64,000 bases of DNA from Chamaesiphon minutus PCC 6605 (GTDB taxonomy: Bacteria > Cyanobacteriota > Cyanobacteriia > Cyanobacteriales > Chamaesiphonaceae). The stretch covers positions 4,352,886-4,416,885 of the forward strand of contig NC_019697.1 in the NCBI RefSeq assembly GCF_000317145.1, in the 5' to 3' direction. The translations under genes and the position numbers were made by a program. The notes beneath the pieces were generated by a model. It did no database searches and was not told the origin of the DNA. It saw nothing but the letters and a program-made list of their open reading frames with translations. Below, in pieces: positions 48,928 to 64,000 of the stretch (its first letter is position 1; each line of letters begins with the position of its first letter).

Positions 48928-49884
48928 TTAAGATCTCCGATCGGCAATTACTCGATCTAACTCTGCTTGCATTTGTTGCTCGATGAGAGTATAACAAGCA
49001 TCTACATAGTCTCGATCGCTAGCAGCACCACGACCGTAACGATCGAATTCTATGGGTTTACAAATGTGAATATGTACCTGTGTCGGTAGCGGTATATTAG
49101 GCAAAGGGCCAAAAGCTACTCCCCATGGCAGTCCTAAATAGATCGGCAATACTACCGGATCGATCCCAAATAACCATGGCAATCCCCACTCGTGAAGACG
49201 TTCAAAAATCGGATACAGATCTGCCAATACGATCAGACTATCATGCGCGCCGATCGATACCACTGGGACGATTGGCGCGCGTTCGCGCAGGGCAACTTTA
49301 ATGAATCCCTTGCGTCCCGCTAGCTGAATTTGATGTCTTTGACTATGAGGTCGAAATATGTCCTCGGCACCACCAGGATAAACCAGTACGGGTGCCTCTT
49401 TTTGTAAGGCCGCCATCGCCATCTTCGGGTGCGCGACGATCGCGCCAGCTCTTGCTGCTAAATTTGAGATCGGGCCAAAATATTTCCATACGCTTGGGTG
49501 TGCCAAGCCGTAGGCGGGGCGTTCGGTGCCATAACGACAAAACCACTCATACATCAACATGAACATGTCAGGGGCTGCTAAACCTCCATTGTGAGAGCCA
49601 ACCACTAACATCCGTCCCTCCTGGGGCACATTTTCCCAACCAGTGCTCGTGACTCGAAAGTAGCGATCGTGCATCCACTGCCACATGGGCATAAATATTT
49701 CGCAAATCACACGGGGATCGCGATCGTCTAACGACCATCCATCGTATTTATGTGGTTTTGGGGGCGGTAGATGGCTCGGCTGTTGAGAATTGTTTAACAA
49801 TGGTCGCAGATTGAGGGTGAGTATGGTTTTAGGTCGCAATTTGTCGATCGCGGCTAAATTATCCTCATCGATCGTACCAAACAA
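48928..49884 (-). CDS. Lysophospholipid acyltransferase family protein
   Basis: The 318-residue protein carries the acyltransferase block: VVGSHNGGLAAPDMFMLMYE (His then Asp as the catalytic pair, with wider spacing than in PlsC), KMAMAALQKEAPVLVYPGGA and RKGFIKVALRERAPIVPVVS. This pattern is closer to the diacylglycerol/wax-type acyltransferases (HNGG, YPGG-E) than to classic PlsC. Membrane association is likely via the hydrophobic stretch LPWLFGIDPVVLPIYLGL. It probably moves fatty acyl groups onto a lipid acceptor; which one is not clear. Confidence 0.8.
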   Translation of the reverse strand: MFGTIDEDNLAAIDKLRPKTILTLNLRPLLNNSQQPSHLPPPKPHKYDGWSLDDRDPRVICEIFMPMWQWMHDRYFRVTSTGWENVPQEGRMLVVGSHNGGLAAPDMFMLMYEWFCRYGTERPAYGLAHPSVWKYFGPISNLAARAGAIVAHPKMAMAALQKEAPVLVYPGGAEDIFRPHSQRHQIQLAGRKGFIKVALRERAPIVPVVSIGAHDSLIVLADLYPIFERLHEWGLPWLFGIDPVVLPIYLGLPWGVAFGPLPNIPLPTQVHIHICKPIEFDRYGRGAASDRDYVDACYTLIEQQMQAELDRVIADRRS

Positions 49885-50000
49885 AGGCTAGCACTGACAT
49901 ATATTGGTAGATGGGTTTGCGTTGAACGAAGTCGGAGCCTGGAGGGGTATATCGGATTTTTCCTTTTGCCCTTTCCCTTAAAGCCTAAAACCTTGCTTGG

Positions 50001-50085
50001 TGAAACACATGCGGAGGAGCGGCTCGCTCCCGCCTTTGTCTCCCGACCATGGAAGCGAGACAAGACAGACCTCCGCGTGATTTCA
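50001..50085. repeat. 85-bp imperfect palindromic repeat
   Basis: TGAAACACATGCGGAGG (50001-50017) faces CCTCCGCGTGATTTCA (50070-50085), with inner pairs AGCG/CGCT and GTCTC/GAGAC. It has the look of the REP-like palindromes scattered in cyanobacterial spacers. It lies 113 bp upstream of tRNA-Phe. Confidence 0.5.
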
Positions 50086-50197
50086 TCCGCAAAGCCTAAA
50101 GCCTTTTGGCTTCTGGCACTAATTTTATCTAAGTACTTGCATAATCATTTAAAACTTGCTATATTAGTCAAGTTGCGAATTTTTCACACAGCAGCGC

Positions 50198-50270
50198 GCC
50201 GGGATAGCTCAGTTGGTAGAGCAGAGGATTGAAAATCCTCGTGTCCGGAGTTCAAATCTCCGTCCTGGCA
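50198..50270 (+). tRNA. tRNA-Phe(GAA), homing site of the CAST
   Basis: Complete 73-nt cloverleaf: acceptor GCCGGGA/TCCTGGC, D-arm GCTC AGTTGGTA GAGC, anticodon stem GAGGA/TCCTC with loop TTGAAAA (anticodon GAA), T-arm CGGAG TTCAAAT CTCCG, discriminator A. CCA is not encoded. The transposon terminus begins 9 bases after its last base. The D-stem/anticodon stretch 50219-50231 is the match to the delocalized guide. Confidence 0.96.
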
Positions 50271-50278
50271 TTCTTTGC
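50216..50278 (+). other. Presumed CAST target: PAM, protospacer and 60-bp spacing
   Basis: GTA at 50216-50218 fits the GTN PAM of Cas12k systems. It is followed by GAGCAGAGGATTG (50219-50231), identical to the 13 bases following the repeat-like sequence at 50521-50540. From the PAM edge to the proposed terminus TGT at 50279 there are exactly 60 bp, inside the 60-66 bp window established for type V-K insertion. The last five bases, TTTGC (50274-50278), would be the expected target duplication. Confidence 0.8.
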
Positions 50279-50416
50279 TGTAGAGCGAAGGAATAAGTGT
50301 CCGTAGCGAAGGATTAAATATCACAGCGAAAGATTCTATGTCCAAGTCGAATAATTCTATGTCACAATAGCGAAGGATTAAATGTCAATTCGTTCAGGAG
50401 CGAAGAAATAATTGTC
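50279..50416. repeat. CAST terminus with six TnsB-type binding motifs
   Basis: The terminus begins TGTAGAGCG. Six copies of an 18-bp motif, consensus AGCGAAGGATTAAATGTC, start at 50284, 50305, 50325, 50346, 50369 and 50399. The copies at 50305 and 50369 differ at one base; the fourth (GTCGAATAATTCTATGTC) is most diverged. Spacing is about 20-21 bp for the first four (two helical turns), then 23 and 30. Arrays of this kind are the TnsB-binding ends of Tn7-like elements. Confidence 0.85.
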
Positions 50417-50520
50417 AATTAGAAAGCTCTAACAGTCGCTAAATTTCTCATAATTTTAATATCTATAGGCCAAGTCTTGCCATTTTGCAAGCGAAAAAAT
50501 TTGCTTGTCCTTTACACTAT

Positions 50521-50553
50521 GTAAATAGGGGAAGTGAAAGGAGCAGAGGATTG
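50521..50553 (+). other. Delocalized CRISPR repeat plus 13-nt homing spacer against tRNA-Phe
   Basis: GTAAATAGGGGAAGTGAAAG (50521-50540) resembles the 3' half of the array repeat (…GGATATGGGTAAGTTGAAAG) and is a better complement of the tracrRNA anti-repeat than the array repeat itself (AGGGGAAGT, 9 perfect). The next 13 bases GAGCAGAGGATTG are identical to tRNA-Phe 50219-50231; the match stops there. It lies on the plus strand, opposite to the array. Short, stand-alone guides of this kind are known to direct V-K CASTs to tRNA genes. Confidence 0.8.
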
Positions 50554-50690
50554 TTTAAGTGCTGTGGAGCGATCGCTAAAGGAAGCGCAGGCATAGTTTG
50601 TGCATCGTATTTTTTCCTCACGACGCAAAGCAAAATACCGTTTTGATGCTTCTGTAACAGGCATATTTAGCTGTTATGAAGCTTTAATAA

Positions 50691-50798
50691 TTTCAACTTA
50701 CCCGTATCCACAAAGGCGATTGCGACAAAAGCATTTTGGTAGTGCAAAAAGGCTCGATCATCTTTCAACTTACCCATATCCACAAAGGCGATTGCAAC
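50691..50798 (-). CRISPR. Type V-K mini-array: two 36-nt repeats, one 36-nt spacer
   Basis: Read on the minus strand, repeats lie at 50798-50763 and 50726-50691. Each begins GT(T/C)GCAATCGCC and ends GGGTAAGTTGAAA, and they differ at two positions. The spacer between (50762-50727) starts GATGATCGAGCC and does not match anything I could spot in the window. The ending GTTGAAAG is typical of Cas12k repeats. The leader-side repeat is the more intact one; a further spacer may follow the second repeat without a closing repeat. Confidence 0.85.
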
Positions 50799-50984
50799 CC
50801 TGTGGGCTAAAACCTATTATCAAGTTGACTTTCACCAGTAGTTTTGCCAAGGGTATTATGCAGACACTTAGAGAAAATCAATTAGCTTAATTGAAGATTT
50901 AATTATGCTACTAGAGCGTTGAACTGACAAAGGCTCTAGCCTTTTGGCAAAGGTACTGGGATTTTTAGCCCCGCTTCGGTTTGC

Positions 50985-51240
50985 CAAAAATATAGGGGAA
51001 GTCCGATGGTTTCATCGGCGATTCAGACTGCCATGCATCTTCGCCAAATTTGGTCTGATACACAATCTTGCTGTACTACCAGACAAACAAACATTTGCCT
51101 TAAATAGTAGAGAATCGCGAACTCACAGCGCCAAATTGTTCCCACCTTGCGGTAGCGTGAGTAAGCGGGCAGCGTTAGGGACGGAAAGCAATGAAACTGT
51201 CCCATTTCCAAGCAAACTCGCATCATAGTGACGCTAGTCC
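50985..51240 (-). ncRNA. tracrRNA region of the Cas12k system
   Basis: The segment lies between cas12k and the array on the same strand, as in known V-K loci. Near its 3' end the order is: GCAGTCTGAATCGCC (about 51015-51030), a perfect hairpin CCGATG-AAAC-CATCGG (51003-51018) and the anti-repeat ACTTCCCCTATATTT (50988-51002), complementary to the repeat end. The motif CTGAATC-CC followed by a hairpin and anti-repeat is what I remember from published Cas12k tracrRNAs. The 5' end is a guess; further stems lie upstream. Confidence 0.75.
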
Positions 51241-51289
51241 GGTTCGTGCGCTAGCTCTAGCCTACTACAACATCACAAAAACTTCAACC

Positions 51290-53470
51290 CTAAGCAGATT
51301 GATTAGAAAGAGATTGTTTAAATTTGGTTTTATCCTGGTAGACCTCAATCGCCATCTGTTTTGCTTGTTCCTGGGAGCTGCCGTGAATCGGTTGCCGCCC
51401 AATCTTCACTAACATCCCCTCCTTTTCGGCTTGATTAGTAATGTATTCGATCGAGCGCCCGTAACTCCACGAGTGGATCTTCACATTCTGGGCTTTTGCG
51501 AACTTCTTCTCAACACCCTTCCACCCAGAACATTCGCGCTCTGCGAGTGCTGCCATCTCACTTTGTTTACGCCGTCTATAATCCTCCATGTCAGGTAAAA
51601 CAATACATCCCGATTGATACGTCTTGGCAAAATCAACTACAGCATTTGCAATATGTCGATCGATTGTATCGCCTAAATTGGCTTCCCCAAACTGGTTATT
51701 CGCCCCCCGCCGCTGATTCTGAGTCCGACGGCGCATATTTAGTTGACGCTGGAACTGTCGTCTATTAACAAGCCTATCCTGCTTCCCCAGAAGTGCCTTG
51801 CGCCCACGGCATTCCAGAATTTTTCCGGAAGAAGTATCTACAATTGTTGCCGTTACCAATCCACTCGCGCCAAGAGCAATACCAGTAACAATATGAGGTT
51901 GTCCAGTGTAGAGAGATTTGCTTGGCCGCTCGTAGTTATCGTCATAACACTCCATCCGTCTTAGAGTTCCAGATTGACGGCTGTGACGATCCTTACGATT
52001 TTTTGTTGATTCACCCTTCTCTTCTGATTCAGTAATATTCTTTTCTAAGGTTTGAAGTGCTTTAGTGATAGGTTTCTTCTGCATTTCGAGTTTGAGTTCA
52101 GTGCCCTCTTTACTTACATACAGGGTTTCTATTGTGCAGTGTAAGAATAATTGATACCGATTCCACGGAAATTCTGGGTCATAAAACGCCGGAGCGCGCA
52201 AACTATCAGGTTTAGTGCCAGCAGTCCCCCCTTCGCGCTTGGAACGTTTGTTATTAGCTTTTCGGCGACGTACAATTCTATTTTCGTTTTTCTTATAATC
52301 CCGCCAAATCAACGTTGCCGATCGCACCAAAAACAAAGCAGATGTGTTTTCGTCTATATTTTTATCGTAAATCTTACGCTCTTTTAAAGCCTGCCATACA
52401 GCATGAATATGACGGTAATCGCCAGCAACTTCAAAGGCATATTTCTCTTCAAAACTCTTAAAACCGACGCAAACTCGCTTTCGAGACTCAACGGAGTTCG
52501 CTTGTTCGCCCTGAAAATTCTCGTTTTGAAATTCATCAAGCTCGGTAGATCCAGATTTACCTGCTTCTACCTGTAAATCTTTAAGCTGAAATTTTTCAGG
52601 TTCGGCCCAAATTAAATCATCACTACTTTCAAACAGAATCGGATGTGGCATGAATGTTTGCTGCTTGAGTAATGCCGATTCTATTGAATTCCACTCAGTC
52701 TCTCTGACATCAATCGACGCAATTTCACCAAAAATGTCTCTGCCCGCCCACGGACGTCCCTTAGGTAGTCTACTATGCAATTGTTTTTGAATAATTTCAA
52801 TTTCTTTTTGCTTGGTATGACGGCGAGCGTTCAGTTTTTTAACATCCTCTTCAGTTTCATCACTATTAATTTTAAATCTATTTTTAATTAGATATGCAAT
52901 CGCACATTTTTCTACCAAATCATCTGTTTTGCGGTGTTTGTCGTAGAGGATTTTATAGATGCCTCCCTCAATCGCTTTCTGACTTTTTTTCTTCTCACTA
53001 TCATTAGAAATTTGGGTATTCACTTCGCTTAAAACTTCTTTTGCCCGATTGCGTATTACATCCAGATTGCAGCTACCGATCGCTATCAATTCAACATCCG
53101 GTTTCAGAATTTCCACGGAATTAAGAAGTTTAGTTAACTTCTCTTGGCGATCTGCCTGTAGAGCCAACCAGGATTCATACGTGTTATGAGTAACTAACCG
53201 TGCCGAAACACAAGCGCGATCGGGTATGCCTTGAAATTGAGGTTGCTTTTTCAACGACCGCCACAGACACAGAAGATCGTCAGCATCTACAGTGTTCTTA
53301 ATTTGCCAATTAGCAAATTTGGGATGCTCAGCTACCAGCAGATTTAACCGATTAATCAGTGGAGTATGCTGCTGAGTCATCAGTTCCCAGAAGTAGCGTC
53401 TCACTTGCTCCCTGTCCTTAGGCGTTTTTCCCAATGCATCCAGACGAAAAGGAAATGTAATCAAGCTCAT
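51290..53470 (-). CDS. cas12k: Cas12k, RNA-guided target-binding protein of a CAST
   Basis: Cas12k binds the guide and target DNA without cutting and recruits the Tn7-like proteins. The 726-residue protein matches Cas12k at the start (SLITFPFRLDALGKTPKDRE; ELMTQQHTPLINRLNLLVAE), in LHSRLPKGRPWAGRDIF and over the C-terminal RuvC part: GIALGASGLVTATIVD (from residue 530, where active Cas12 proteins have an Asp), SGCIVLPDMEDYRRR (about 620) and GRQPIHGSSQEQAKQMA (about 690-706). The RuvC acidic residues appear lost, as in other Cas12k. It is longer than the 639-residue Scytonema protein, mainly from polar insertions near 300-345 and 405-440. Confidence 0.93.
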   Translation of the reverse strand: MSLITFPFRLDALGKTPKDREQVRRYFWELMTQQHTPLINRLNLLVAEHPKFANWQIKNTVDADDLLCLWRSLKKQPQFQGIPDRACVSARLVTHNTYESWLALQADRQEKLTKLLNSVEILKPDVELIAIGSCNLDVIRNRAKEVLSEVNTQISNDSEKKKSQKAIEGGIYKILYDKHRKTDDLVEKCAIAYLIKNRFKINSDETEEDVKKLNARRHTKQKEIEIIQKQLHSRLPKGRPWAGRDIFGEIASIDVRETEWNSIESALLKQQTFMPHPILFESSDDLIWAEPEKFQLKDLQVEAGKSGSTELDEFQNENFQGEQANSVESRKRVCVGFKSFEEKYAFEVAGDYRHIHAVWQALKERKIYDKNIDENTSALFLVRSATLIWRDYKKNENRIVRRRKANNKRSKREGGTAGTKPDSLRAPAFYDPEFPWNRYQLFLHCTIETLYVSKEGTELKLEMQKKPITKALQTLEKNITESEEKGESTKNRKDRHSRQSGTLRRMECYDDNYERPSKSLYTGQPHIVTGIALGASGLVTATIVDTSSGKILECRGRKALLGKQDRLVNRRQFQRQLNMRRRTQNQRRGANNQFGEANLGDTIDRHIANAVVDFAKTYQSGCIVLPDMEDYRRRKQSEMAALAERECSGWKGVEKKFAKAQNVKIHSWSYGRSIEYITNQAEKEGMLVKIGRQPIHGSSQEQAKQMAIEVYQDKTKFKQSLSNQSA

Positions 53471-53706
53471 AATGCTTACCCCATGATTACTACATGTATT
53501 TATAAAACGATTCTCAAGAGTTACTTATTCTTAGAAGATTTGTTTATTCTTCTAAACTCAGCGATCGTGAATAGTATCCTAGATTATATAGTGCATATTT
53601 ACCATTCAAAGTCAAGTTTTTTCAGTTTTTATTTAAAATGCCAACATTACTCGATGCTGGCAGCTAATAGTCGCAGTGGAAATTGCCAGCTTATAATGAT
53701 ATTAAC

Positions 53707-53721
53707 TTGTCACAGTGACAA
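53707..53721. promoter_or_regulatory. Perfect palindrome between cas12k and the divergent HTH gene
   Basis: TTGTCAC-A-GTGACAA is a perfect 7-bp-arm dyad six bases upstream of the ATG chosen for the HTH gene, within the cas12k upstream region. Position and symmetry suggest an operator, perhaps of the HTH protein itself. A similar TGTCA/TGACA core is also common in CAST end sequences, so a TnsB relic is an alternative. Confidence 0.5.
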
Positions 53722-53726
53722 ATAGA

Positions 53727-54056
53727 ATGACAATGGCTATTGCTCCACACACCCCGGCTCATAGACACTGGAATGCGTTAACAGCTTATCTCCAGCCAAT
53801 AGAAGATGACAGCATGGAACTCAACGAGTTTCTAAAACACTGGGATGTAGCAAGGGAGGAACTGGCTTACATCTGTGACTGTTCGCTGACAACGGTGAAC
53901 CACTGGTTCTCGCAGGGAGAGCATCGTAGATTCCCTTCTCAGAAGCACAAGCAGAAGCTTGCGCTCGCTCACCATATCTGGACGACGATCGAGACTGAGC
54001 CAGAATACCTGCAAACGCTCCGTGAGATGTATATTAAAAAACATCTGAAGCGATAA
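53727..54056 (+). CDS. HTH protein divergent from cas12k, candidate regulator
   Basis: 109 residues from ATG 53727; the longer GTG start at 53715 lies inside the palindrome and is less likely. Residues about 40-75 form a helix-turn-helix: FLKHWDVAREELAYICDCSL followed by TTVNHWFSQGEHRRFPS. In other V-K CASTs a divergent regulator (CvkR, MerR type) represses cas12k. This protein has the same position but a different HTH type, so it would be an analogue rather than a CvkR orthologue. A hairpin terminator follows its stop. Confidence 0.7.
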   Translation: MTMAIAPHTPAHRHWNALTAYLQPIEDDSMELNEFLKHWDVAREELAYICDCSLTTVNHWFSQGEHRRFPSQKHKQKLALAHHIWTTIETEPEYLQTLREMYIKKHLKR

Positions 54057-54062
54057 AAAAGG

Positions 54063-54086
54063 TTGCCAAATGGCAAGTATTTTTTG
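54063..54086 (+). terminator. Terminator behind the HTH regulator
   Basis: TTGCCA-AA-TGGCAA (54063-54076) followed by GTATTTTTTG, 6 bp after the stop codon. Confidence 0.75.
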
Positions 54087-54692
54087 TCGCTGTGAATAGG
54101 TGATGTTTACTGTGGTTAGTGGGGAATCCTGACCTCATTACTCGATCGATAAAGATAGGTTCCGTCCGCTACAGTAAAAAACTAAAGGTTGATAAAAGGG
54201 AGAGAGCGTGTATCAATAACCGGAAAATTCTCAATCTAGCTCTATCAAGGAATTGTTATCTCCAGCTAAATGTCCAAAACTTTTGTCTTGAAGTACGCGA
54301 CAGTATGAACACTTCAGCTCTTCAATCTAGTGTAGGCCATTCGAGCGTGAGATTATTCTCAATCAAAAGTGAATCATAAAGATGACAGATAGTGACATAA
54401 GCGAAAAGAGACTACTCCCTTCCTGCGATAAGATTATTAGTGATAGATCGTTACTGAGTAAGCTTTTGAGCGACTGAATCTCTATAGTCTTATGCCGGAA
54501 AGGGAGTAACTTGCCAAGTGCTGTTTACATCCTCTACTTTAAAAAACCTTACAGTTAATTAATTGGCGATCGCATCTCACCAAAAATCCATTTAAAAAGT
54601 AGATTAAATGAAACCAAATATGTAAGCAAGTAGATTTAATCACTTCTGCCGATTTAAGTCGAACACATTCTTGCGATTTGAATACGTTCTTG
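54087..54692. other. Non-coding CAST interval, 606 bp
   Basis: No gene can be supported. A plus-strand open frame at 54119-54379 has no domain and no ribosome binding site. The stretch is AT-rich and less dense in CGATCG than the core chromosome. Confidence 0.45.
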
Positions 54693-55617: not shown

Positions 55618-56001
55618 CTAAATATTCCATAATCTAGTCACGGGATAAGCATCGAATTGAAGATCGCCGCTAACGATCGTTAGATCGAGATCGATCGATT
55701 GGGCAATGATGATTCTGTCGAATGGATCTCTGTGATGAAGTGGAAGATCTAGATATACTTTAATCGCCGTTATGTCGATCGGTAGAATTGAGATGTCTTG
55801 GGTAACTAAATTCTGTTCGATCGCCTGAAAGTCAGTTTTTAATGTTAGCTTGCCAATATTAATCTTAATCGCTATCTCCCAGAGCGATACAATACTCACA
55901 AATACAGATTCAGCCGATTCGATTTGTTCTTTCGTACTGGGTGGTAGTCGGGAATCGTTGTCTAGAAACCAAATCAGGGTATGAGTGTCTAATAAAAACA
56001 A
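55618..56001 (-). CDS. PIN-domain toxin (VapC-like RNase)
   Basis: The 127-residue PIN domain shows its acidic residues: LLDTHTLIWFLD at the start, SLWEIAIK (Glu), DPFDRIIIAQSI and LTIVSGD. PIN toxins cut RNA, often tRNA. It starts at TTG directly after the TAA of the antitoxin gene upstream, so the two are translationally coupled, typical for toxin-antitoxin pairs. Confidence 0.87.
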   Translation of the reverse strand: MFLLDTHTLIWFLDNDSRLPPSTKEQIESAESVFVSIVSLWEIAIKINIGKLTLKTDFQAIEQNLVTQDISILPIDITAIKVYLDLPLHHRDPFDRIIIAQSIDLDLTIVSGDLQFDAYPVTRLWNI

Positions 56002-56217
56002 TTACATGTACTCCTGGAGATCCTCTAGTGGCGCATCAAAGTCATCGGACATCTCAAACATACCTTGCATGGTTCCTGCTTGACGACGTTTTTGCGTTGG
56101 TATCGGTGGATTGGTTTGAGCATAGTTTGCTGCTAGAAATTCGGCATAATGGAGTACTTCCTGTTGAAGTTTTTCGGGTAGCTTTTCGAGGCTGGCAATT
56201 AAGGTTGGAGATAGCAT
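56002..56217 (-). CDS. DUF2281-type antitoxin
   Basis: From ATG 56217 (MLSPTLIASLEKLPEKLQQE) the 71-residue protein has a helical start (VLHYAEFLAANYAQ) and an acidic, unstructured C-terminus (MSDDFDAPLEDLQEYM) fitting toxin binding. This is the DUF2281 antitoxin pattern usually paired with PIN toxins. The stop abuts the toxin's start. The open frame extends eight residues upstream, with less support. Confidence 0.75.
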   Translation of the reverse strand: MLSPTLIASLEKLPEKLQQEVLHYAEFLAANYAQTNPPIPTQKRRQAGTMQGMFEMSDDFDAPLEDLQEYM

Positions 56218-56301
56218 TTTGAATGTACCTTGGATGAGCAAGAATCGGCAGCAATCGAGATCGACGATCGCCTGAACCCATATATCGATCGCATTCTCCT
56301 A

Positions 56302-57996
56302 TTATACCTGCGACATCAATGCGTTCAATAGGTCTGTCTGTTTGCCTTTGCCAGCTTTGATCGACTCCTCCAATCGATCGCACATCCCCATCAATCGATC
56401 GATCTTTTCCACTATTCGCCGTTGTTCTGCTATTGAAGGCAACATAATTGGCATCTTATTTAAAATTCCATGATTGAGATTTGTCATTGTTGTACCAACA
56501 GAATTTCCTCCCAGATAATCTTTAACTCCTTGTGATTTGAACAGGATAATTATATACGAGCGATTTATATTAGGGATGAATCTTAAAACGAAACTACCTG
56601 TTCCACAAAGCCATCGATTTGAGTGATTAGTTACTATTGCACAACGACCCATCTCACCACGTCTAGCCATTACAATATCCCCATCAAATAGTCTGTAAGA
56701 TTCCATTTGACTGGCTTTTTCATTAGTTACTGTCACGGTTGGATCGTGAACAATTTCCCCATTAATCATGTGTATTGGATTAATTAGAGGTATCCCATTT
56801 TCAACATAATCACTTTTATGAATTGTTAGTCCGAATGGGCCAGTTGCTATTTCAGTAGCCAATTCACCAAAACGAACTAATTCCCATCCATTGGGCAATT
56901 CATAAGGAATTTCTTCTCGATCGATTTCTGGCAAAGGCTTAGATTGTTTAATTTTCCCTTCCTTCACCAACCGTTGCTTTTCAAGCTCGATCGATCTCAA
57001 CAATTCACTCGCGGGTTCATCATTCGGATCTTGCGGTACCAACTTGCCCATAACGGCGAGTTGGAGGATGGTTTTGCGTAGCTCGACGACGTTTTCTTTG
57101 ACAGAATAGAGTTCGCCGAACTGTTGGGTAATGAAACTCCAAGCGGTGCTAAATTCGCTGCTATCCTTGGCTGTCAACAGTCGATCGAGTGCCGCTGTAT
57201 GGACGGTGAGCAGCCGTTGGGATCGATCGATCCGCAATTTCTCTAATTCATCACAACGCGCCATTAGTTGGTCGATTTTGGCAACAATCCGGCGTTGTTC
57301 GGCGAGAGGTGGAAGGGGTAATAAATAATTCCGCAGAAAACCTAGAGAAACAAAACTCTGTACTGCACCTGAAGATTGCGCCTTCATATTTTCTTGTGCC
57401 TGTGCCAGAAAATAGTGCAAGTATCTGTTATCAGGTTTGTCAGCTATGTAAAATTTGAGTAGTGCCACATTCTTAATCGAAAACTCTTCATTACAGTTCA
57501 CTATGACGGGGTTTCCGATGCTTCCAATCATAGCAAAAAGAATATCTCCAATATTGACTTTGGATCGTTCACTTATCTTTATATGATCTTCTTCAGAAAT
57601 AAATTTCACATCTTCAAAACTAAGCATACCTGTATATAGGTTTTTACTCGTAATGAGTGGGTATCCAACATCAACATACTTAGGCGTGTCATGAGTTCCA
57701 TCACGAACATCGAGTGCATCATTTAATCGCGTCCATTCCCACCCATTGGGTAGATCGTAAGGCACTTCTTCGGATTGAATTTTTGGCAACGGTTTGGATT
57801 TTTTGATCTTTCCTTCCTTTACCAGCCGTTGTTTCTCTAACTCGATCGATCTCAATAGCTCACTAGCTGGCTCATCATTCGGATCTTGCGGTACTAACTT
57901 CCCCTGCATCGCTAGAGTTAAAATCAATTCCCGTAACTTCTTAATCCCATCAGGCGCAGCAAAAGCCACATCAAAATGTTGTTCCAAAAGACTCAT
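56302..57996 (-). CDS. hsdS: Type I restriction-modification specificity subunit
   Basis: HsdS sets the DNA target of a type I R-M system through two target-recognition domains. The 564 residues show two TRDs, each followed by the spacer pattern PPLAEQRRIVAKIDQLMARC / IAEQRRIVEKIDRLMGMCDR. The run LVPQDPNDEPASELLRSIEL continues as EKQRLVKEGKIK and occurs twice, in front of both TRDs, nearly identical at the DNA level (about 56950-57050 and 57800-57910). The stop of hsdM overlaps its start by one base at 57996, so the two are one operon. Confidence 0.93.
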   Translation of the reverse strand: MSLLEQHFDVAFAAPDGIKKLRELILTLAMQGKLVPQDPNDEPASELLRSIELEKQRLVKEGKIKKSKPLPKIQSEEVPYDLPNGWEWTRLNDALDVRDGTHDTPKYVDVGYPLITSKNLYTGMLSFEDVKFISEEDHIKISERSKVNIGDILFAMIGSIGNPVIVNCNEEFSIKNVALLKFYIADKPDNRYLHYFLAQAQENMKAQSSGAVQSFVSLGFLRNYLLPLPPLAEQRRIVAKIDQLMARCDELEKLRIDRSQRLLTVHTAALDRLLTAKDSSEFSTAWSFITQQFGELYSVKENVVELRKTILQLAVMGKLVPQDPNDEPASELLRSIELEKQRLVKEGKIKQSKPLPEIDREEIPYELPNGWELVRFGELATEIATGPFGLTIHKSDYVENGIPLINPIHMINGEIVHDPTVTVTNEKASQMESYRLFDGDIVMARRGEMGRCAIVTNHSNRWLCGTGSFVLRFIPNINRSYIIILFKSQGVKDYLGGNSVGTTMTNLNHGILNKMPIMLPSIAEQRRIVEKIDRLMGMCDRLEESIKAGKGKQTDLLNALMSQV

Positions 57997-59444
57997 TAGT
58001 TAGCCCCCAATGCCTGCATTAATTCCTGCTTTAGCGAGTCTTGAGCGTCTTTCATTTGGCGATCGATCTCCAGATATTCCTGCATCAACTCATCAGGATC
58101 GCGATGATTTATGGCGACTTCGTGGGGATTTTTGCAATCGAGATTATAGTTACGCGCCGCGATTTCCTCCGCTGACACCTTCCAGGCATATTCGCTCGGC
58201 TGACGATTTTGCCACCAACTTTTCTCGCGATCGAATTCCTGAATTGTCAGCGGTTTGGAGCGAGAATAAGACTTATAACCTGGGGGATAAGGATGCTCGA
58301 AAAACCAGACATCCGCAGTCGAGCCGCCCTTATCAAAGAACAGAATATTGGTATTAATGCTCGTGTAGGGGCTGAAAACGCCCTTGGGCAACCGGACGAT
58401 CGTATGAAGATTGAAATCTTCCAGCAACTCGCGTTTGAGATTGGTTTTCGTACCCTCGCCAAACAGGAACCCATCGGGCAACACCACCGCAGCGCGTCCC
58501 GTATCCGGCTTGAGTAGGTGCATAATCAACGCCATAAACAAATCGGCAGTTTCGCGGGTTTGGTACTTCTTGGGGAAATTGCTTTCGATCCCATCTTCCT
58601 CCATCCCCCCAAACGGCGGATTGGTGATAATGATATCCACCCGATCCTTCGGGCCATAATCGCGGAGCGGACGGCTCAGGGTATTATCGTGAAGAATATT
58701 GCTCGGCACATCGATCCCATGCAACATCACATTAGTCATCGCCAGCATGTGGGGGAGCGGTTTTTTCTCCACCCCATTCAGCGTTGATTGGAGCGTAACT
58801 CGATCCTCAGCGGTTTTTAAAAACGGTTTGAGATGTTCGATCGTATTTGTCAAAAAGCCCCCCGTACCACAAGCCGGATCGAGTAATTTTTCCCCCAATT
58901 TGGGGTCGATAATATCTACCATAAACTGCGTCACCGCACGGGGCGTATAATATTCCCCCGCATTCCCCGCCGATTGCAGATCCGCGAGAATTTTCTCGTA
59001 AATATCATTAAATAAATGGCGATCCGTCGAAGAATTAAAATCGACATCCTGTTCGATGCAGTTAATCACCTGACGCAACAGCGTCCCCGATTTCATATAG
59101 TTGTAAGCATCCTCAAATACTGCACCTACAACCTTTCCCTGGGGCGACACCCCCGCCGCCGTCGCCAAAGTTTTCAGCACCGGAAACAGATTATTATTGA
59201 CAAAATCAATTAACTCCTCACCCGTAATTCCTTCCGCATCCTTCGCCCAATTCGACCACCGAAATCGACTCGACAACGGCGATTTATATCCAGGCACCGT
59301 GAATTCCCATTCCTGCTCCTTATCATCAAAGATCTTCAGAAACAGCAACCACACAATCTGACTAATGCGTTGAGCGTCACCATCGACACCCACATCCTTC
59401 CGCATGATATCCTGAATGGTTTTAATGAGAGTTCCGATCGCCAT
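57996..59444 (-). CDS. hsdM: Type I restriction-modification DNA methyltransferase
   Basis: The 482-residue N6-adenine methyltransferase has SAM-binding motif LLDPACGTGGFLT, catalytic NPPFGG (IIITNPPFGGMEEDG) and the type I N-terminal domain (QRISQIVWLLFLKIFDDKEQ). It forms the modification core with HsdS. No hsdR is found on either side within the window: downstream are the toxin-antitoxin genes, upstream the ROCO fragments. The system is therefore either methylation-only, or hsdR lies beyond the right edge. Confidence 0.94.
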   Translation of the reverse strand: MAIGTLIKTIQDIMRKDVGVDGDAQRISQIVWLLFLKIFDDKEQEWEFTVPGYKSPLSSRFRWSNWAKDAEGITGEELIDFVNNNLFPVLKTLATAAGVSPQGKVVGAVFEDAYNYMKSGTLLRQVINCIEQDVDFNSSTDRHLFNDIYEKILADLQSAGNAGEYYTPRAVTQFMVDIIDPKLGEKLLDPACGTGGFLTNTIEHLKPFLKTAEDRVTLQSTLNGVEKKPLPHMLAMTNVMLHGIDVPSNILHDNTLSRPLRDYGPKDRVDIIITNPPFGGMEEDGIESNFPKKYQTRETADLFMALIMHLLKPDTGRAAVVLPDGFLFGEGTKTNLKRELLEDFNLHTIVRLPKGVFSPYTSINTNILFFDKGGSTADVWFFEHPYPPGYKSYSRSKPLTIQEFDREKSWWQNRQPSEYAWKVSAEEIAARNYNLDCKNPHEVAINHRDPDELMQEYLEIDRQMKDAQDSLKQELMQALGAN

Positions 59445-59916: not shown

Positions 59917-61026
59917 CTATTTGCCTTCTGCAAAGCCTTTGAAGGTTGCCATGCAAACTTTAACGATCGGTCGATCGATTGCTGCTTCTAGAGCGGCATA
60001 GCCACCTTCTGAAATCGCTTTAGTAATTCGATCTTTGAGGGTGGGATTTTGTTCGATCGATTCGATCGCTGCTTTACCGATTTTCTCTTGTCCGGTGGCA
60101 GTATTTGGATTATACTCGTCCGAGAGTATATCTAATAAGGATTGAATCTCTTTGGCTGCTTCGGCGAGATTTTGGGAGTTATTAATTTGGGTGTTGATTT
60201 TATCGCCCAGTACTTTATCTCCGGCAATATTATCGCCGCTACCGTGGGAGTTTTGATTAATGGTGTTTCCAGACATATTTTCTACCTTGTGAATGTGATA
60301 AGTGGTGTGATTTTGGACGATCGATCCAGGTGTTGGAGGTACTGGAGATCGTCTAGCTGCGGGATTTCCGGCTAAATATTCTTTGTAGACATTCGGATTT
60401 AGCTGTTCGATCTCGGTTAATAATTCACTTTGTTTTCCTTGACGTTCTATATATTCAACTAGAGTGCGAATTCGTTGGTCTTTAGTTTGTCCTTGGGTGA
60501 CAGCGACTTTAAAGTCATTGCATAAATTTAGTAACTCATCGTCGGTGAGAGCTTTCTCTACTAATTGGCGAAGATTCATCGATAGTCGTGGTGGAGGTGG
60601 AACTGATGGCTGAATGGGTTCGATCGTTTCGTCGATTAGTTCTCGAATTTTAACCTGTTCAAAACTGCGATAACATTCGATCGTCAATTTTCCCTTTTCC
60701 AAGCGGTTTTCTAGATCCTTGAGTACATAGCGATGAGGTTCTAGAGGTTCTTGAGCTGTTGTACACTGAAAACAATTGCAAGGAATCAGTTCTTTGTATT
60801 CTAAGCGTTCGTAAGAGTTGTGGATTTTTTGGAATTCGTGGCGAACGATGGCGAGGAAGCTTTTTTTATTGAAGCCGATGGCGCGGATACGGATGTGCTT
60901 TTTATCGTAGTCTTCGATGACTTCAACGCGGGCGGAGCCGTTGGTGAGGATGCATTCGTGACAAGTTAAGAAAATCAGAGATTTGTCAAAAGGGTAATAA
61001 AAAGATGCCAAACTGTTTCTAGTCAA
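59917..61026 (-). pseudogene. 3' part of an interrupted ROCO gene, with EAD-type domain
   Basis: After about 25 residues encoded by the IS end, the frame continues CILTNGSARVEVIEDYDKKH and RIRAIGFNKKSFLAIVRHEF, which is the end of a COR-like domain. NLRQLVEKALTDDELLNLCN and so on (about residues 150-220) resembles an effector-associated domain of the EAD7 type. The C-terminus is a Gly/Asn/Asp-rich segment (GSGDNIAGDKVLGDKINTQ) and a helical tail ending MATFKGFAEGK. It joins in frame to the 5' part at 62437-64000 if the IS and one 9-bp copy are removed. As it stands it has no proper start. Confidence 0.8.
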
Positions 61027-62436
61027 GAGTTTGAGGGAATAGAGGCCTGATGACCAGCCGCCGAAGAAGTAACCGCGACCACGCCAAAAAGAACCACCAA
61101 CCAGGTGTGGAAGATGAGATCATCGCCGCTCAAGTAGAGGCTTTATTGACACCAGCAATTTTCAATCAAAGTCATTACTACCGACAATTAGGGCTGAGAA
61201 ATCGGCTGTTAAATTTACCCTTGATGATGGCAGCAGTGCTGACGCTACTGTGGCGGAATGTGCCAGGAGTCAGAGAACTAAGCCGAATGTTAGGGCGAGA
61301 AGGATTTTTGTGGTGTGAGCCAACACAAGTAAGTCAACAGGCGATTGCACAAAGATTTCTGACCTTTCCATCTGAGTTATTTGAGAGAGTGTTTAAGGAA
61401 TTACTGCCAGAATTTAGAGTGAAGTGGCACCAGAGAAAACAGCGATTGTTGCCACAAAGCATTGAATTTGCTCAAGCAAAATTTGAGCGGATTTGGGCAT
61501 GTGATGGCTCCACATTGGAAGCGATATTCAAGAAATTAGATAGCTTATCTGATGTGCCAATCGGACAACTAGCGGGAAAAATGGGAGTAGTCATAGATTT
61601 GGTGACGAGATTGCCGATTGAAATCTGGTTTAGAGAAAATCCCAAAGCTTCAGATGTTAATTTTGAGAAAGATATCCTGAATTTAGTAACATCGGGCACT
61701 TTATTGCTCTTGGATCGAGGCTTCTATCATTTCCAATTTTGGCAAGAATTAATTAACAGAGATATTCATTTTATTACTCGATTAAAAAAAGGTGCATCGC
61801 TACAGATAGAGCGAGTATTTAGCAATAGTTATAGTATCCGTGACCGAATAGTGCGGATGGGGTCTGGCACCAAAAAGACTCCATATATAACTGTAAGATT
61901 AGTCGAAATTAAAGTGGGTAAAGTCTGGTATTCTTATCTAACTAGTGTACTCGACCCATTGAATCTTCCTCCCTATGTAGTCGCCGATTTGTACGGAAGA
62001 CGGTGGCGAATTGAAGAGGCTTTTAATACTGTTAAACGATTGCTCGGGTTGAGTTATTTATGGACTGGTTCAGTTAATGGAATTAAATTACAGATGTGGG
62101 GGACTTGGCTGTTTTATGCAGTTCTAGTCGATTTAGGTGATGCTGTAGCTGATGAATTATCTCTCCCATTCGACCGCATTTCTTTAGAGATGATTTATCG
62201 AGGTCTTTATCACTTTCATGTAGCTCATCATAAAGGTTTAGCTGCCAATCCAGTCACCTATTTTGCTGCCCCAGAGAATCAAGATTTAGGTATTGTTAAA
62301 ACTGTTCGTAAACCTAATGTTAAGTTAATTATTGCACCTTTTCCTGATTCTATGAGTCGAACAGACAATTTTTTCTTCGACTCATCGCCTCAAGCCTGCT
62401 TGACAAGTGCGATCGCTTCTTAACTTGTCACTAATG
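60953..62436 (+). mobile_element. IS4-family insertion sequence, intact, 9-bp target duplication
   Basis: The 1484-bp element has terminal inverted repeats CATTCGTGACAAGTTAAGAA (left) and the reverse complement of CATTAGTGACAAGTTAAGAA (right), differing at one base. The target duplication GTGAGGATG is present at 60944-60952 and 62437-62445. The copies are identical, so the insertion is probably recent. It splits the ROCO gene. Confidence 0.92.
61050..62423 (+). CDS. IS4-family DDE transposase
   Basis: The 457-residue protein has the IS4 core: first Asp in IWACDGSTLEAIF (about 150), second Asp in LLLLDRGFYHFQFW, and the Y-(2)-R-(3)-E-(6)-K signature in LYGRRWRIEEAFNTVKRLLG. The frame is uninterrupted, and the terminal repeats are intact, so it should be active. 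The last codons run to 13 bp before the IS end. Confidence 0.93.
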   Translation: MTSRRRSNRDHAKKNHQPGVEDEIIAAQVEALLTPAIFNQSHYYRQLGLRNRLLNLPLMMAAVLTLLWRNVPGVRELSRMLGREGFLWCEPTQVSQQAIAQRFLTFPSELFERVFKELLPEFRVKWHQRKQRLLPQSIEFAQAKFERIWACDGSTLEAIFKKLDSLSDVPIGQLAGKMGVVIDLVTRLPIEIWFRENPKASDVNFEKDILNLVTSGTLLLLDRGFYHFQFWQELINRDIHFITRLKKGASLQIERVFSNSYSIRDRIVRMGSGTKKTPYITVRLVEIKVGKVWYSYLTSVLDPLNLPPYVVADLYGRRWRIEEAFNTVKRLLGLSYLWTGSVNGIKLQMWGTWLFYAVLVDLGDAVADELSLPFDRISLEMIYRGLYHFHVAHHKGLAANPVTYFAAPENQDLGIVKTVRKPNVKLIIAPFPDSMSRTDNFFFDSSPQACLTSAIAS

Positions 62437-64000
62437 GTGAGGATGACACCATTTTTCCAGACTAGTTGGCTGTTGTCTGGAGCGGGTAGACATTCGATTT
62501 TGTCGTGCATTTCGATGATGAAGCGGGTGACGATCCCTTTGGGCATGAATTCGTATTCGTATCGCAGTGTCAGATTGTCGGTTTCGTTCCAGGTGTAGGC
62601 TGGTTCGTCGCTGGGAAGCAGAATGGGGGCGATGTAGGTGTCTTTGCCGAGGGGGTAACAGATCTTGAAGTTTTGCATCAATTTGAGCAATTCATCCTGC
62701 ATCTTGGCATATTCAGAATCGCCCCAAATGGTTTCGAGATCTGTGGTGGTAAAGCGACCTTTGTTTTGGATGACGGCGGGGGTGTCAGTGACTTTGTAGA
62801 CGGCGTTGGTTGCCCAGGAGGGCTTAAGAATGACCCGATGTTTGAGGGTAGAATCTTTTTGGAAGTGGAGACAAATGCCCAAGTCATGGAGGTAATGACT
62901 GATATTTAGCCGTTCCTTTTCATCTTTGACTCCATTGCATTTGCCGAGGGTGTGGTATTCCTCGATGCTGATATAGTTTTGATGTTGGGCGTAGTTTTCG
63001 AGGACGTTGCGAATTTTGACCCAGGTTTTGGGGATGGGAAGCTGGATGTGGGGGAGGTTGGCGATGTGGGTTTGGATGAAGTGCTGAATCTCCCTGAGTC
63101 CGCGATTGCTAGAGAAGTTGGTAGGTAGGGATTCTTTGAGTTGGAGAAATTCGCTGCGGAGTTGTCGTTCGTTGAGTTCGCAGTTTCGGTCGCCTTTTTC
63201 ATTTTTGACGATGAAGATCGGGCTATCATTGCTATAGAGTCGGACGACATTCAACCAATAGTAAAAGTTGGGATTTTCGCGGCGATTATCGACGACGAGA
63301 GTGTAGAGAGAACGGGCAGTGAGGAAAAATTGGTGGGTAGCATGATAGATATCTTGACCACCAAAGTCCCAAATATTCACGCGGAAGGGTTTACCATCAG
63401 GTTGAATAAAGTCCCACCGAATCACATCGATACCTTGAGTAGATTCTTCATCCGATGTGAGCGCGTAATCTGGATCTTGGAGCTTTTTGGCAAGGGTAGT
63501 TTTACCCGCGTCACCTTCACCGACGATGATAAATTTCGCTTCGTAGAGTGGTTCCGTAGCCTTGGGACCTTGGGTTTGGAAATAGAAGCTGAGAATGGCT
63601 TGGAGATCTCCAGGATCTTCATAAAATTTTTTATTTGTGCCGAGGATCTCTGGTGGAATCGGCACGGGATTTCCACGTAAGTCTAATTTTTCGAGATTGT
63701 TGAGCGAGCGAAACCACTCAGGAATTACGGCAATTTGATTATTATAAAGTTTTAGGTCAGTCAGACTGGTTAAATTGCCGATCGTCTGGGGTAATTCCGC
63801 GATTTGATTGTTGCTGAGGTCAAGGTCACTCAGACTGGTTAAATTGCCGATCGTCTGGAGCAATTCGGCGATTTGATTGAAACTGAGGTTAAGGTTAGTC
63901 AGACTGGTTAAATTGCCGATCATCTGAGGCAATTCGGCGATTTGATTGAAACTGAGGTCAAGGGAAGTCAGACTGGTTAAGTTGCCGATCGTCTGGGGCA
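62437..64000 (-). pseudogene. 5' part of the interrupted ROCO gene (LRR-Roc-COR), open past window edge
   Basis: Reading from the window edge, leucine-rich repeats of 23 residues (LPQTIGNLTSLTSLDLSFNQ type) are followed by a Roc GTPase: P-loop IIVGEGDAGKTTLAKKL, DxxG motif as DFGGQDIYHATHQFF, and VKNEKGDRN in the place of NKxD. A COR region follows (EYAKMQDELLKLMQNFKICY; YEYEFMPKGIVTRFIIEMH) up to LVWKNGVILT, where the IS4 sits. An internal ATG at 63932 is not the start, since the repeats continue to the right. ROCO proteins with C-terminal EADs are thought to work in bacterial conflict or cell-death signalling. Confidence 0.85.

Follow-up and report, generated by a model that had tools for sequence, protein, structure and literature searches.

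The proximity of a cas12k gene, a short CRISPR array and a tRNA gene in the genome of Chamaesiphon minutus PCC 6605 raises the question of whether the element carrying them is a type V-K CRISPR-associated transposon (CAST) that is still mobile, and of how its homing guide is encoded. The window analysed is a stretch of 64,000 nucleotides of contig NC_019697.1 (positions 4,352,886 to 4,416,885 of the forward strand), in which the element begins at position 50279 and extends past the right edge. With a probability of about 0.88, it is a V-K CAST that homed to tRNA-Phe by means of a delocalised crRNA encoded on the opposite strand, that was grounded by the ISAs1-bounded loss of tnsC and tniQ, and that would not be self-mobile. 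The V-K CAST itself is already known and the unusual feature is the strand of the guide; according to a recent review (PMC11656645), it is unclear how the delocalised crRNA of CASTs originated.

Architecture of the targeting region

50198..50270, + strand: tRNA-Phe (GAA), the attachment site (ARAGORN, Rfam RF00005)
50215..50231, + strand: PAM GGTA (50215-50218) and 13-nt homing protospacer GAGCAGAGGATTG (50219-50231), in tRNA-Phe
50279..50418, no strand: left end (LE), with terminal TGT and four TnsB-like sites, beginning TGTAGAGCG at 50279
50528..50553, + strand: delocalised homing guide, from sequence match, comprising truncated repeat R* GGGGAAGTGAAAG (50528-50540) and spacer
50585..50609, + strand: terminator-like stem and T-rich tail
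50691..50798, - strand: mini CRISPR array from sequence, two 36-nt repeats and one 36-nt spacer
50900..51289, - strand: putative tracrRNA region, approximate bounds
51290..53470, - strand: cas12k, 726 aa, intact frame (NCBIfam V_Cas12k, PDB)

The 726-residue protein matched the NCBIfam model V_Cas12k (NF038191) with 521.5 bits (cut-off 150; E 2.7e-156) and ShCas12k in the PDB at E 3.5e-92. It is Cas12k and not TnpB or another Cas12, two TnpB-type models having remained below their cut-offs (19.3 bits for a cut-off of 100, and 18.5 bits for one of 32). Its identity to Cas12k proteins outside its own clade is about 33% or less. The array repeats (50691-50726 and 50763-50798) are 94% alike at a spacing of 72, and their spacer had no match in the plasmid collection. 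Both the array and the putative tracrRNA region lie on the cas12k strand and would be read towards the LE, as is characteristic of V-K CASTs. Rfam models run over 49800-54500 matched the tRNA alone, with no family for the tracrRNA, although sequence similar to this region occurs in the FACHB-471 and Lyngbya relatives described below. Within it, ACUUCCCC (51002-50995, - strand) could form base pairs with 8 nt of R*, GGGGAAGU; in the FACHB-471 element the best partner of R* differs from this site. The idea that the tracrRNA pairs more favourably with R* than with the array repeats was discarded, as this is so only for the last 14 nt of the repeat, the full repeat being stronger in total.

The guide spacer (50541-50553) is a 13-nt match to tRNA-Phe positions 50219-50231, compared with 16-17 nt in most other loci. 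The GGTA motif lies 60 nt from the LE, in keeping with the anchor protospacer that the relevant section of Ziemann et al. 2023 (PMC9938897) places next to a GTN PAM 46-82 nt from the LE. In the first 162 bases of the LE, the pattern CGAA..A(N5-7)GTC marks four TnsB-like sites, and three were found in the right end under a strict pattern, so that both ends show the TGT/ACA termini with TnsB-site arrays of V-K CASTs. The 46-bp terminus of the LE is 85% identical to that of the right end (C1:4425797-4425842), which lies outside the window, 22.7 kb from the LE, and reaches L004 15843 (window-equivalent 72957; L004 is the stretch that continues past the window). The initial annotation had placed a type V-K CAST beside tRNA-Phe, in the order terminus, guide, array, tracrRNA and cas12k within 50279-53470; the Cas12k model, the ends, the guide match and the tRNA all agree with it, and the same order was recovered.

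The element resembles the cyanobacterial V-K CASTs described in PMC9938897 in the tRNA facing the LE, the R* with a short spacer, the GTN PAM, an array and a tracrRNA that share the strand of cas12k, a divergent gene for a small DNA-binding protein, the presence of cargo and a tnsB adjoining the right end. It is unlike them in that its R* is read away from the LE, tnsC and tniQ have been deleted and the 5-bp duplication is missing. With regard to ShCAST of Scytonema hofmannii, for which Cas12k, TnsB and TnsC structures are in the PDB, Cas12k and TnsB are homologous along most of their length, while Cas12k is 726 aa long against 639-698 for the PDB chains (any tags included), and the TnsC of the nearest complete relative, from Lyngbya, has 383 aa instead of 276.

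Loss of the transposition genes

L004 8700-10985, - strand: truncated hsdR, cargo, past the window edge
L004 11061-12545: ISAs1, between the tnsC stub and the truncated hsdR
L004 about 12642-12538, - strand: tnsC stub, last codons and stop contributed by ISAs1
L004 12669-14987 (window-equivalent 69783-72101), - strand: tnsB, beside the right end

The tnsB gene faces away from the right end, and its product belongs to the V-K branch, being closest to ShTnsB (PDB, E 5.9e-140) as against Tn7 TnsB (8.7e-8); no tnsA was noticed by eye among the ORFs of the element. Instead of the tnsC and tniQ genes of a V-K CAST, tnsB is followed by the tnsC stub, then ISAs1 and then hsdR. About 32-34 codons of tnsC are left, and the alignment score of its stub (43) was reached by 0 of 500 shuffles, over a short alignment and with a narrow margin (shuffle maximum 40). 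At least 13 near-identical copies of ISAs1, including that at the junction, are present in the genome; a 10-bp duplication flanks 5 of 5 other copies inspected and is missing from the junction copy. This looks like an ISAs1-mediated deletion that removed tnsC and tniQ, and their absence is read as a secondary loss, the element being a degraded V-K member by descent.

No type V-K tnsC or tniQ was found elsewhere in the host genome by profile and relative-TnsC searches. The profiles PF05621 and PF06527 detect the TnsC and TniQ of the Lyngbya relative above cut-off; in the host genome, PF06527 matched at two places, each within a locus with a TnsB of 27-31% identity, and PF05621 at six, one of these being a TniB match with an internal stop. 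As PF05621 matches were likewise present in 13 of 14 control genomes, the weaker of them mean little either way. The TnsC of the Lyngbya relative had no match in the host genome, while the same query finds other V-K TnsC proteins at 24-29% identity among the loci.

The annotation had left the transposition half out of view, expecting a second terminus followed by TTTGC, and had considered that a lack of Tn7-like transposition genes nearby would tell against a CAST. In fact, tnsB and the right end are there, tnsC and tniQ are gone, and the terminus is followed by AATGT. Its description of a complete targeting half was too generous, because TnsC is absent, and with it TniQ, the link between Cas12k and TnsC.

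The flanks, TTTGC on the LE side and AATGT on the right, hold no 5-bp target duplication of the kind that V-K CASTs have, which indicates that the insertion has not been left untouched. Given that there has been much rearrangement in the genus, no mechanism is drawn from this absence. The flanks are rearranged in comparison with congeners. In 8 of 8 of these, whose assemblies are fragmented, the left and the right flank fall on separate contigs, which precludes the demonstration of an empty site; in the host genome, coaBC, the tRNA-side neighbour, and the gene adjoining the right-flank gene are 0.73 and 1.26 Mb away, and the 10-kb stretches around them had no match to the element.

The course of events proposed would begin with insertion 60 bp past the GGTA PAM in tRNA-Phe, targeted by Cas12k and a delocalised crRNA (R* and 13-nt spacer) paired to the tracrRNA; this homing crRNA, encoded in the lineage opposite to cas12k, tracrRNA and array, would be transcribed independently. 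Later, an ISAs1 copy would have entered tnsC, and an adjacent deletion up to the start of hsdR would have taken tnsC, tniQ and anything between them. The targeting RNAs, Cas12k, TnsB and both ends would have been kept in an element probably unable to move by itself. It is also a clear example of a CAST immobilised through an IS-bounded tnsC/tniQ deletion.

Relatives of the element

GTDB contigs scanned with a single Cas12k protein gave no relative, and with an alignment of three gave four loci (Cas12k identity over the best segment):

Cyanobacteria bacterium FACHB-471 (L067/L090), 76%
Lyngbya sp. HA4199-MV5 (L068/L087/L091), 65%
Phormidium tanganyikae FI6-MK23 (L092), 74%
Myxacorys californica WJT36-NPBG1 (L093), 64%

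The plasmid collection held only two Cas12k, both distant. The Lyngbya element carries tnsB, tnsC and tniQ in that order and is the nearest relative with the full set, unlike the window element, which lacks the last two; it has no recognisable right end. In the stretches of the FACHB-471 element examined, tnsB is without its end, and neither tnsC, tniQ nor a right end was seen. The Phormidium cas12k is truncated whereas that of the window is intact, and the Myxacorys cas12k lies at a contig end. Right ends were not found in two of these sister elements, which seem incomplete as well, so that the lineage could consist of decaying copies. The dN/dS values of cas12k, tnsB and the HTH gene within the lineage are 0.08-0.23.

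Strand of the homing guide

The initial annotation is silent on the strand of the guide, which is opposite to that of the array and cas12k. Among 36 V-K loci examined, the guide was found on the cas12k strand in 30 and opposite to it in three (window, FACHB-471 and Lyngbya), and was not found in the remaining three, one of which (L078) has a same-strand match, but no GT PAM. Loci on a list of nine duplicates, and loci with fewer than 400 bases past cas12k or in which the end of cas12k was not matched, were left out of this survey, and 16 loci in whose stretch no tRNA faced the element were not counted. When the tRNA region was replaced by a composition-shuffled decoy, with a single shuffle for each locus, 0 matches were obtained in the 36 loci. 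In the relevant section of Ziemann et al. (PMC9938897), R* is described as read toward the left end; in the three opposite-strand loci the unit is read neither in that direction nor on the strand of the array.

These three loci belong to one Cas12k clade (SH-aLRT 100, in a quick tree of 51 rows). Of the 33 guides, the tree as a whole includes 31, 28 same-strand and three opposite, and one change of strand is required on it, counting rows of known strand. The two relatives share the opposite-strand guide with the window element and differ from it in target, tRNA-Cys instead of tRNA-Phe. The PAM contains GT in all three, at 60 (window), 74 and 62 nt from the LE.

Transcription of the array cannot also yield a guide placed opposite to cas12k, tracrRNA and array; such a guide has to be transcribed separately. 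A -10-like hexamer ends 7 nt ahead of R* in all three loci (CACTAT, CACAAT and TACAAT), a weak promoter with no -35, the window hexamer having three of six consensus bases at the shared position. A common -10 position ahead of same-strand guides was not above shuffles, and therefore promoters cannot be claimed for guides in general. The terminator-like stem begins 31 nt past the 13-nt match, on the guide's strand; two such sites were found in the region on both strands, against 1.0 expected, and none was seen by eye in the two relatives.

It may be, although we place this somewhat below an even chance, that the homing crRNA of one deep Cas12k lineage has turned into a free-standing gene of the opposite strand, its promoter start coinciding with the truncated repeat; homing and array targeting would in that case be under separate control, possibly by the HTH-like regulator. 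The opposite-strand unit, together with the different target tRNAs, suggests that the array is not necessarily the source from which a homing guide is read, and makes the lineage a natural comparison for guide origin and homing control.

Alternative explanations

Read-through from tRNA-Phe, with no promoter of the guide's own and expression mainly while the element lies downstream of a tRNA, is a rather unlikely way of transcribing it: the guide does sit on the sense strand of the tRNA, about 270 nt downstream, the FACHB-471 and Lyngbya elements share the layout at tRNA-Cys, and a promoter scan of the + strand ahead of the guide found no site, but the hexamer recurs at the same distance in all three, and such a guide would be of no use to an element newly arrived elsewhere. 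It is hardly probable at all that the + strand match is a functionless captured tRNA fragment, the real guide being absent. Although the match is just 13 nt, R*, the GT-containing PAM and the LE distance recur in three loci at two different tRNAs, the decoys gave nothing, and each of these loci has one guide, with none on the cas12k strand under the survey rule.

As for mobility, it is very improbable that the V-K CAST is complete and mobile, or that it moves with TnsC and TniQ supplied by a second element of the same cell. No damage is seen in tnsB, cas12k, the guide or either end, and TniB and TniQ matches occur in two further Tn7-like loci of the genome; nevertheless, the element's own tnsC is a stub and its tniQ is gone, the TnsB proteins of those loci are distant, one TniB match is interrupted by a stop, and the TniQ of the V-K relative had no match, at E up to 10, in the stretches around the two TniQ places (L013 and L014). 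Retention of Cas12k and guides for a role other than mobility (such as repression at the tRNA, or exclusion of competing elements), with tnsC/tniQ loss tolerated or selected, deserves equally little credence. The intact cas12k under purifying selection in the lineage and the depleted FACHB-471 element would fit it, whereas one relative has the full operon and a third relative's cas12k is truncated; moreover, as the junction ISAs1 is near-identical to the other copies, the time since the deletion may have been too short for any decay of cas12k.

Regulator and cargo

53715..54056, + strand: gene for an HTH-like protein (HTH113), 113 aa, divergent from cas12k
56302..57996, - strand: hsdS (type I restriction specificity), cargo
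57996..59444, - strand: hsdM, cargo
59917..61026, - strand: COR-B and EAD7 protein, apparently the second part of the Roc-COR protein
61050..62423, + strand: IS4-family transposase, apparently separating the two parts of the Roc-COR protein
62382..64000 and past the window edge (L004 5268-8249), - strand: gene for LRR-Roc-COR protein

HTH113 had nothing above cut-off in Pfam, and its predicted fold is poor (mean pLDDT 58). The V-K regulators given in the relevant section of PMC9938897 are CvkR (MerR-type, 139-185 aa, divergent from cas12k) and Arc_1/Arc_2 (53-72 aa); with 113 aa, HTH113 is neither, and on its sequence it is a candidate regulator unlike the three published types. The element offers a divergent Cas12k/TnsB pair together with a candidate fourth regulator type. 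HTH113 adjoins cas12k in three of the four relatives, and among 51 loci a MerR-type query (from L078) matches 12 and the HTH113 query nine, with zero overlap.

Organisation of the element

The element homed to tRNA-Phe is, by descent, a degraded member of the V-K CAST family, and it works, or worked, like one. The genome comprises 6.76 Mb in three contigs, the window being C1:4352886-4416885, and a search of the genome sequence placed the second terminus 22.7 kb away from the first, in the continuing stretch L004 (window-equivalent coordinates are L004 positions plus 57114).

Features of the element (window coordinates unless otherwise indicated)
50198-50270: tRNA-Phe
from 50279: left end (LE), starting with TGTAGAGCGAAGG, with four CGAA..A(N5-7)GTC sites
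50541-50553: guide spacer, a 13-nt copy of tRNA-Phe, directly after the truncated repeat GGGGAAGTGAAAG
CRISPR array: two repeats of 36 nt each
53715-54056: gene of a 113-aa protein (HTH113), upstream of cas12k and divergent from it
L004, beyond the window: hsdR, ISAs1, tnsB and the right end (RE)

The 726-aa protein is Cas12k, the only match to this family in the genome in two genome searches, and TnsB is closest, among solved structures, to that of the Scytonema hofmannii system (ShTnsB). Among the cargo genes are hsdS, hsdM and hsdR of a type I restriction system and a small gene pair on the minus strand (55618-56241) which, judged by eye, we take to resemble a PIN-domain toxin and its antitoxin. 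An apparent LRR-Roc-COR-EAD7 gene, also cargo, is split in two by an IS4-family transposase (L004 2803-8249; window 59917 to beyond 64000). The layout is the same as in the V-K elements of Ziemann et al. (PMC9938897), where the LE is faced by a tRNA, the array and cas12k lie near the LE and tnsB lies near the RE.

Orientation and expression of the homing guide

The strand of the guide was compared in 36 V-K loci that have a tRNA facing the element in the available sequence, up to 3.5 kb, beyond the stop codon of cas12k. To count as a guide, a GAAAG (or TGAAA) motif had to precede a match of 11 bases or more, in which one mismatch was tolerated, and the PAM had to contain GT. This rule detected a guide in 33 of the 36 loci, and in none (0/36) with a shuffled decoy. 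The guide lay on the cas12k strand in 30 of the 33 and on the opposite strand in three, namely the window, Cyanobacteria bacterium FACHB-471 (Cas12k 76% identical, at tRNA-Cys) and Lyngbya sp. HA4199-MV5 (65%, also at tRNA-Cys). The distance from PAM, which is GGTA at the tRNA-Phe copy of the 13-nt match, to LE terminus was counted as 60, 74 and 62 nt, respectively. In a quick Cas12k tree of 51 proteins, these three loci group with a fourth relative, one without a guide assignment, in a single long-stemmed clade with an SH-aLRT support of 100; for the 31 rows whose guide strand is known, a single strand change is enough. By contrast, the homing unit in the V-K description of PMC9938897 reads toward the LE. 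No mention of an opposite-strand unit was found in the consulted passages of two reviews and a survey (PMC11406308, PMC11656645 and PMC10293859) or in literature search listings, though an earlier report may well exist.

In both the window and the Lyngbya locus, the tracrRNA region contains ACUUCCCC, to which the truncated repeat of the flipped guide (GGGGAAGU) is complementary throughout, with a computed energy of -15.3 kcal/mol each; in FACHB-471 the best partner of the truncated repeat is a different stretch of that region (computed, -15.1). For the last 14 nt of the array repeat, pairing with the best partners is weaker (-10.5 in the window, -12.5 in Lyngbya and -10.8 in FACHB-471), but the total for the whole repeat is stronger (-25 to -28).

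As regards transcription, the guide may have a promoter of its own or may be expressed by read-through from the tRNA. A -10-like hexamer ends 7 nt before the truncated repeat in all three loci (CACTAT, CACAAT, TACAAT); the one in the window agrees with the consensus at just three of six positions, and a closer match, TACACT, ends there 9 nt before the repeat. No -35 element was seen ahead of the flipped guide, and a promoter scan gave nothing on the plus strand ahead of that of the window. Past the guide, a terminator-like stem lies on the plus strand at 50585-50603, one of two in the region on both strands, with 1.0 expected.

A candidate regulator

Homologues of HTH113 are found upstream of cas12k in nine of the 51 loci including the window, the others being 67-88% identical, and are spread over three or more separate parts of the Cas12k tree, the gene having apparently been exchanged between Cas12k lineages. 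The gene is listed for the window, FACHB-471 (L067), Phormidium tanganyikae FI6-MK23 (L092), Myxacorys californica WJT36-NPBG1 (L093) and the further loci L041, L043, L046, L048, L061 and L072. A MerR-type query matches 12 of the 51 loci, none of them shared with HTH113. Length and lack of similarity set the protein apart from the three published V-K regulator types (CvkR, Arc_1 and Arc_2), and it is a candidate for a fourth. The name 'HTH-like' is a guess, since it rests on two weak helix-turn-helix-type Pfam matches, both below cut-off; the structure model was too poor for use. The opposite-strand guide, together with the HTH113 regulator, sets this lineage apart as a new form of V-K CAST.

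Loss of tnsC and tniQ

Of the relatives, Lyngbya is the nearest one to have the complete set: tnsB comes first, followed by a TnsC of 383 aa, which matches TniB and AAA, and then by a TniQ of 173 aa. The Lyngbya TnsC (L087 5656-6807) is about 100 aa longer than ShTnsC. This defining TnsC/TniQ part, present in the sister element, has been lost from the window element. There, the tnsB stop codon is followed by a 34-codon frame resembling the start of the Lyngbya TnsC (score 43, against a maximum of 40 in 500 shuffles), which leads into a 1485-bp ISAs1 element that supplies its final codons and stop. Directly at the other side of ISAs1 the hsdR reading frame opens, without a start codon. At least 13 near-identical ISAs1 copies, including that of the element, are present in contig C1 (40 of 53 candidates scored), the product of a recent burst. 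Since a perfect 10-bp duplication flanks all five other copies inspected (L094-L099 stretches) and is missing here, the simplest history is an insertion of ISAs1 into tnsC, followed by a deletion from it into hsdR.

V-K type TnsC or TniQ was not found elsewhere in the genome. The TniB and TniQ models, which detect the Lyngbya TnsC and TniQ above cut-off, match six and two places, respectively; as 13 of 14 control genomes are matched by the TniB model too, its weaker hits carry little weight. The two TniQ places belong to loci with a TnsB of 27-31% identity to that of the element, and the Lyngbya TniQ has no match in those loci. With the Lyngbya TnsC as query, a genome search at an E-value limit of 0.001 gave nothing; as a control, the same query recovers other V-K TnsC proteins, at 24-29% identity, among the collected loci.

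Flanks and completeness

The 5-bp target duplication is absent (TTTGC at the left flank versus AATGT at the right). The two flanks lie on different contigs in all eight congeners, and the former flank neighbours, taken from the order in one congener, are now 0.73 and 1.26 Mb off in this genome, with no match to the element beside either. The genes after tRNA-Phe are not those of the window in any of the six congeners read onward (L124-L129), and they vary between most of these six, two of which have coaBC there, so the region is one of frequent rearrangement.

No element seen in the clade is demonstrably whole. For neither of the two best relatives was a right end found. In FACHB-471, tnsB breaks off at about residue 480 and the stretches examined contain no tnsC or tniQ, and in Phormidium cas12k breaks off at about residue 532. 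Within the clade, dN/dS is 0.08-0.23 for cas12k, tnsB and HTH113 (synonymous change being near saturation against Lyngbya), so the proteins were probably functional during most of their history.

Other Tn7-like loci

Two more Tn7-like loci with TnsB, TniB and TniQ matches were observed in the genome, L013 (C1:1193402-1196214), broken by an internal stop in the TniB match, and L014 (C1:3600397-3603917). A piece of TnsB, 46-48 residues long and 60-63% identical to the TnsB of the element, lies amid broken frames at L017 (C1:2647877-2648020) and is probably the remnant of another V-K element. Each of the two relatives' genomes also holds a further V-K-like tnsB that is more distant, at about 30% identity, and stands next to matches to tnsC and tniQ (L088, G084 C20; L089, G066 C11), so trans-complementation could be asked in both.
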